In this document: positions 39,264 to 41,474 of the stretch, one piece after another
How the letters are laid out: every line of letters begins with the position of its first letter
Numbering within the stretch: position 1 is the stretch's first letter
Origin: Salibacter halophilus
GTDB lineage: Bacteria; Bacteroidota; Bacteroidia; Flavobacteriales_G; Salibacteraceae
NCBI RefSeq assembly: GCF_008806325.1
Contig: NZ_WACR01000005.1
Span: forward strand, 124,001-188,000
Length of the DNA: 64,000 nt
Direction of reading: 5' to 3'
Made by a program: the position numbers and the translations under genes
Notes under the pieces: generated by a model
What the model was told of the DNA's origin: nothing
The model's database searches: none
The model's input: only the letters and a program-made list of their open reading frames with translations

Positions 39264-40052
39264 TTAATCGTAAACAGGGAGTGTAATGAAATCAGCACTT
39301 GTCGTTTCAAAAAAGAGTCTTTTACCATTGACTTTTTTCTCTTCTGTTTTAGAATAACGAATAGTAATCCTCACTGACTTCATTAGAATGCTTTTCTTTA
39401 ATTCTGCCAGTTGATCAGGAGTAAAAACCATGTTTTCTTTTATCTCATCTTTATAGTATGAGAAAAACTCGTAGTAAGGTCCGCCATCAAAAATGATAGT
39501 AATATAATTTACTTCGGCTGGTCTATTATCTAGCGCGAGCTCAAAATCCTGAGAAAGAAATAATGCTGTATCTGTTGATGCAGAAGGATAAACCGGAGGA
39601 GCAGAAGTGTAAACAAATGGAGAGAATCCATCAGTATTATTACTGAATTCCCATTTAACTTGAGAAAAATCAACGTTTGAAGGAGATTCTAGGCCATTAG
39701 GAGTGTCAAAAATATAATATCCGTCATCAGAGTTAAGAGATTGATCATTGATGGTTAAGTCCTCACCTATGTACAACCTGTAATCATTTTCTCCCGGCCC
39801 GTTAAAAAATCGACCATTGACAAAATACGATTCTAAACCATTATCTTCAGTTTGTCTAGCAGCTTGAAAATGAGCATCAGCAAAATTAGTTTGAGTTCTT
39901 ATGCCCATAAAATAATCATCCACAGCCTTTACCGTATCGGGGACCTCTTGTTTAGTAGGGGTGTTTTGTACAGGCGTTGGTTCATCCTCGTCTTTATTAC
40001 AGGAAAACAAAAACAAACCCGCAAGAGCCATAATAAAATATTGTTTTTTCAT
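39264..40052 (-). CDS. Lipoprotein of unknown function
   Basis: I start at 40052, where the product reads MKKQYFIMALAGLFLFSCNKDEDEP, a lipoprotein signal with lipobox LFSC and an acidic, Pro-rich linker. The 262-residue protein has no recognised domain. The mature part has many aromatic and Asp/Asn residues in strand-like segments (YFVNGRFFNGPGENDYRLYIGEDLT, YYIFDTPNGLESPSNVDFSQVKWEF) and ends TTSADFITLPVYD. Convergent with the BNR gene and divergent from the broken transporter. It lies in a stretch (38.9-42.5 kb) without an exact copy of the dispersed motif. Confidence 0.75.
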   Translation of the reverse strand: MKKQYFIMALAGLFLFSCNKDEDEPTPVQNTPTKQEVPDTVKAVDDYFMGIRTQTNFADAHFQAARQTEDNGLESYFVNGRFFNGPGENDYRLYIGEDLTINDQSLNSDDGYYIFDTPNGLESPSNVDFSQVKWEFSNNTDGFSPFVYTSAPPVYPSASTDTALFLSQDFELALDNRPAEVNYITIIFDGGPYYEFFSYYKDEIKENMVFTPDQLAELKKSILMKSVRITIRYSKTEEKKVNGKRLFFETTSADFITLPVYD

Positions 40053-40244
40053 AGTGTAAGTTTTTAAAATGTAAAGCAAGTGTAATGTTAACTTTTAACA
40101 TATACAAATACCTACATCAATTCAACCGTAAATATAATACCCTATTAAAATGGTTTATACATTGTCTTTGAATGAAAATGAAAGAGGTTCTAAAATAAAA
40201 CTATATTCGCTTTAGAAACTCATTACTCATAACCCTTCTTTCAT

Positions 40245-41474
40245 ATGGAACAACCCAAAAGTCATTTAGATTCAACTCTTCTATTCTTTTCAAAAAGTCT
40301 AGAAAGAATTTGCTTTTATGGTTTTCGGTCAATTATAGTGTTGTTCATGATCAGCGACCAATTGGACTTAACCAATGAAGCTGCTTTAAGTATATATGGG
40401 TCTTTAGCTTTAGGTTTGATCTTATCAAGAATTCCTGGAGGAATAATTGGTGACTTAATACTCAATAACAGAATAGCAGTCTACACAGGAGGCATTTTGC
40501 AAATCTTAGGAAGTTTAACTGTCTGTCTATTTAGTTCAGAGTTGTCATTTTATGTTGGATTAATACTCTTCGTAATAGGTGCCGGTTTGCATGCTCCTAA
40601 TTTTACGGCATATTTTGGGAAAGCCTATCTCAACAAGATAAAGCTTATGGATTCTGGTTTTGCTCTAATGTATTTAGCAATCAATATTGGAGCATTTACT
40701 GGTTCTTTTTTAATAGGATATCTAAGTGAAATATATGGTTTCAAATCAGGCTTTATAGTTTGTTCCATCATAATGCTTTTGTCATTAACATTATTTTACT
40801 TTCACAGACAAAAGAAATTGTCCTCCTATTCTAATGAATTCAATAAAGTAAGTTTTAATCTTCGCTTTGTATTGATTTTTATTATTACATGTGTACTGGG
40901 GTTATACTGGTTAACTTATGAGATAATCAACTTCTCAATTAGAGATGTAGCTGATAAATTCGAAAAAGTAATTCAATCAAGGCTTGATTTAGCAAGCATC
41001 GATATACATTCAGTAACGACACATTCTTTTAGCTTTACAATACTTTTTGCTACACTTTTAATTTTGACGATAATTTGACCCAAAAAGAAAAATAGCTCAT
41101 TAAAAAGAATGATTACAGGTGTTTCTTTATTCCTTTTCTCCTGTGGAATCATGCTAGTTACTCCAAGTACTCCTCACGGAGCTCAGTATCTGTTATTTTT
41201 ATTAGCCATCACTATGCTTTCTATAAGTGAAGCATTCTTTTCTCCAGTAGTTAAATCATTAGTTGTCAAATATTCAAATCCAAAATACCTTGCTACTATT
41301 CTTGGACTTATAGTAACACCAAGCTACTTTTTAATCAAAATAGCTTATGGATTTGATCTAGCAGAAACACCAGGAAAAAGTGAATTTATAGCTTTAACAA
41401 TAGGTGCAATTATTTTAGCGCCTGTTATCATTTTTCAAAAGCTTAACAGCAAAACCTTAGGTGAAGGATCATGA
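40245..41474 (+). pseudogene. POT/PTR-family peptide transporter interrupted by one in-frame TGA
   Basis: The frame opens at 40245 (MEQPKSHLDSTLLFFSKSLERICFYGFRSIIVLFMI, typical of the proton-dependent oligopeptide transporters) and runs 277 codons to TGA at 41076-41078. The same frame continues without any shift (PKKKNSSLKRMITGVSLFLFSCG...) to 41474. In total 409 codons with about 12 hydrophobic helices, short for the family's usual 450-500. A single change TGG to TGA would explain the break, since Trp is expected at such helix ends. Alternatives are readthrough, two peptides forming one carrier, or a base error. The region is visibly AT-richer than its neighbours and has no exact motif copy, both consistent with acquisition. 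Confidence 0.8.

Follow-up and report, generated by a model that had tools for sequence, protein, structure and literature searches.

A single in-frame TGA in a divergent POT-like transporter gene of Salibacter halophilus: probably a young pseudogene

A transporter gene in the 64,000-nucleotide stretch of Salibacter halophilus DNA that we analysed (hereafter the window) is interrupted by one internal stop, TGA at codon 278, and in our assessment this is probably the mark of a recent nonsense change, most likely TGG to TGA, in a divergent POT-like gene that has become a young pseudogene. The interruption itself is straightforward: by translation, positions 40245-41474 form a single frame on the + strand with this one internal stop, and the terminal stop of the frame (41472-41474) is a TGA as well (Table 1). 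There is no second internal stop and no frameshift in the frame between codon 278 and 41474. The preliminary description of this DNA had reported a POT-type transporter with a single in-frame TGA at 41076-41078, kept in frame on either side of it, and translation bears out both its coordinates and its wording. The two TGAs are separated by 131 sense codons (132 with the final stop included), a stretch which, from base composition alone, would stay open by chance with a probability of ~8e-5, and over the same positions the two alternative forward frames contain 7 and 17 stops. These 131 codons have a coding-like base composition by codon position, the same coding-like pattern with low third-position GC is found both before and after the TGA, and the part after it can be aligned with the C-terminal domain of intact homologues of full length.

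Table 1. Features of the interrupted transporter gene, in window coordinates.
Feature	Position	Strand	Basis
5' part of POT/MFS-like transporter gene, codons 1-277	40245..41075	+	Pfam MFS_1 1.6e-15, PTR2 2.5e-15; alignment
Content of 5' part: N-terminal domain and about two helices of C-terminal domain	40245..41075	+	
In-frame TGA, codon 278; Trp in 11/13 aligned homologues	41076..41078	+	
In-frame remainder, 131 codons and terminal TGA; last transmembrane helices	41079..41474	+	Alignment to homologue C-termini; codon-position base composition
Longest ATG-started ORF in remainder, 121 aa; conceivable reinitiation product	41109..41474	+	

Which residue stood at codon 278 before the stop? Homologues were searched for in the family (34 other genomes), the order, the class (395 genomes), the phylum (395 genomes) and a collection of genome contigs. 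Within the family, one of the 34 other genomes (G026) has a close relative, intact and 33% identical; the class adds five further relatives at E <= 1e-35, all intact, and the phylum sample adds none. Stop-free homologues are available from six other genomes, at 31-33% identity, and none of the searches, from family to genome contigs, returned a full-length identity above about 33%. At the column of the stop, 11 of 13 aligned intact homologues have Trp, including all three of the closest (32-33% identity), and the remaining two, both among the six closest homologues, have Arg and Phe. A TGG to TGA change is therefore the simplest parse, although, with no homologue more than about 33% identical, a Trp codon directly before the change is inferred. 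The opposite outcome, in which the homologues would be normal short proteins finishing here, was also looked for: the homologues are full length, and among those aligned none has a stop, or ends, at or near the codon-278 column.

The preliminary description had called the change fresh, and the relative divergence of the two parts agrees with this, in that it gives no sign of extra decay after the stop. Long inactivity would be expected to show as a greater divergence of the part after the stop than is seen between intact genes. When the identity of the C part is divided by that of the N part, the window gene gives 0.55-0.82 against its homologues, and the intact homologues give 0.56-0.96 among themselves; with homologues only ~33% identical, this is a weak test for slight decay. 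Since divergence after the TGA is no faster than in intact pairs, the lesion is recent on the scale of the homologue comparison.

The same undecayed state, with one substitution as the sole lesion, is also what would be expected of an assembly or sequencing error, the true genome having a sense codon at 41076-41078 and an intact gene. We consider such an error unlikely, as the assembly is otherwise clean (99.97% complete, in 32 contigs) and eight other MFS matches and 29 ABC-domain matches in the genome are all open, so that the assembly is not riddled with false stops. A ninth other MFS match does contain TAA stops; it lies below the family cut-off and is unlikely to be a genuine gene. We infer that the TGA is real in the organism.

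A real TGA could in principle be read. In a model of functional UGA readthrough, the stop would be leaky and some full-length transporter would be made, for example with Trp inserted via tRNA-Trp(CCA), keeping expression low. The undecayed part after the TGA is what such a model would expect, and the base that follows the TGA is C; UGA followed by C is a weak termination context in E. coli. In a published analysis, in-frame stops in bacterial genes proved widespread, with dN/dS below 1, though short-lived (PMC7918605). Against this, the stop is carried by no homologue, and no machinery for reading UGA was found in the genome. All 35 tRNA genes detected were typed and none has a UCA anticodon; nothing in the genome scores above the cut-off for tRNA-Sec, the best match being tRNA-Ser(TGA). 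Features of tRNA-Trp(CCA) that promote UGA reading are a 4-bp anticodon stem, A9C and G24A (PMC13092985), and the sole tRNA-Trp of the genome, read from its sequence, is canonical, with a 5-bp anticodon stem (CUGGU/ACCAG), A9 and G24, and so lacks all of them. The 100 nt after the TGA fold no better than shuffled sequences (z = 0.68), that is, the RNA structure following the stop is unremarkable. Selenocysteine recoding and recoding of the TGA by a suppressor or variant tRNA-Trp are rejected on the basis of the tRNA survey and the canonical tRNA-Trp. Nothing points to a dedicated UGA-reading mechanism, and basal readthrough is compatible with the data. Readthrough had been put forward in the preliminary description as an alternative, and neither the tRNAs nor the RNA structure lend it support; we regard functional readthrough as very improbable, and likewise its specific form, a maintained leaky stop at which the ordinary tRNA-Trp inserts Trp to give a low level of the full-length divergent POT-like transporter. 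A stop that proved both conserved and leaky would make this gene a convenient case for studying regulated readthrough in Bacteroidota. UGA is otherwise a normal stop in the window, as had been stated before: apart from the transporter gene itself, it ends 4 of the 15 window genes checked.

A two-part transporter, in which the 277-aa fragment would assemble into a working protein with a 121-aa chain made by reinitiation at 41109, is hardly credible: an in-frame ATG does lie 10 codons past the TGA, and the break at codon 278 does fall close to where a hydrophobic helix (residues 256-281) ends, but in-frame ATGs are common by chance, no split homologue was found and there is no separate conservation signal.

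We therefore return to the recent nonsense change and to the kind of gene that it struck. The preliminary description had called the gene AT-rich and recently arrived. AT-rich it is: its GC is 0.32 and its GC3 is 0.25, compared to a GC3 of 0.38-0.48 in the large genes of the window, and it sits in a low-GC stretch from about 39.2 to 41.7 kb. The adjoining gene in the same stretch (39264-40079, - strand) is also AT-rich (GC3 0.27); its product is lipoprotein-like and has no Pfam match. Recent arrival is only partly substantiated. In its favour, the distribution is patchy and the gene is absent from both congeners examined; against it, no insertion boundary could be recognised from repeats around the gene, and neither a donor nor an empty site was found. 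Synteny was followed in the two congeners, on short contigs, and in one of them (G023) the M16 peptidase is preceded by another gene, a carboxypeptidase-like one. In G026 the transporter copy and the match to the upstream flanking gene are on different contigs. AT-richness and patchy distribution together would fit acquisition by transfer, without proving it.

The genome also has two intact canonical POT genes with the full ExxER motif, in tandem on the same contig but outside the window (638 and 541 aa; L088:1625-5179, at about 81.6-85.2 kb of contig C5), so that the window gene could be dispensable. In the first of the tandem, encoding the 638-aa protein, roughly 100 charged residues are inserted ahead of the last helix.

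The sequence of events that we propose is then as follows. Before the lesion the gene was probably a patchily inherited, POT-like accessory gene. One recent nonsense change, most likely TGG to TGA, would have struck codon 278, and translation would now end after about the eighth helix, leaving a fragment of 277 residues, probably inactive, from which most of the C-terminal domain is missing. Further lesions would not yet have accumulated in such a young pseudogene. If it is an ordinary nonsense allele, the consequences are for annotation only: the gene is better entered as a probable pseudogene (or the base checked) than as two short proteins.

How does the gene compare with known systems? It resembles the POT/PTR2 family (TIGR00924) in that its N-terminal domain matches both PTR2 and TIGR00924. 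The N part alone matches Pfam MFS_1 with E 1.6e-15 and PTR2/POT with E 2.5e-15, the PTR2 score of 56.7 bits being above the gathering score of 27, and translation through the stop lengthens the MFS_1 match to residues 19-358 and improves its E to 9e-20. The best match to a solved structure (9.6e-23, residues 13-188) is the bacterial peptide transporter YePEPT. The gene differs from the family in being interrupted by a stop, in staying below the curated TIGR00924 cut-off (E 1.4e-27, 96.9 bits vs 130.2) and in its helix 1 motif, which reads KSLER instead of ExxER, with Lys in place of the first Glu. This POT-like group (window 40245-41078; loci L003 and L036-L040) is rare in the class and patchily distributed; Lys or Arg is likewise found at this position in its closest members, whereas the canonical paralogues have Glu. 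The window gene is thus part of a divergent side branch of POT-like transporters, and Lys or Arg at the first Glu of the proton-coupling motif suggests a change in coupling or substrate. As to the lesion, the likeness is to young bacterial pseudogenes (PMC7918605), where the window gene also has one in-frame stop and is otherwise undecayed. Since such stops in bacterial genes are described as widespread and mostly short-lived (PMC7918605), the case is an ordinary one: most simply, an accessory transporter gene that the cell can do without has recently acquired a nonsense mutation.
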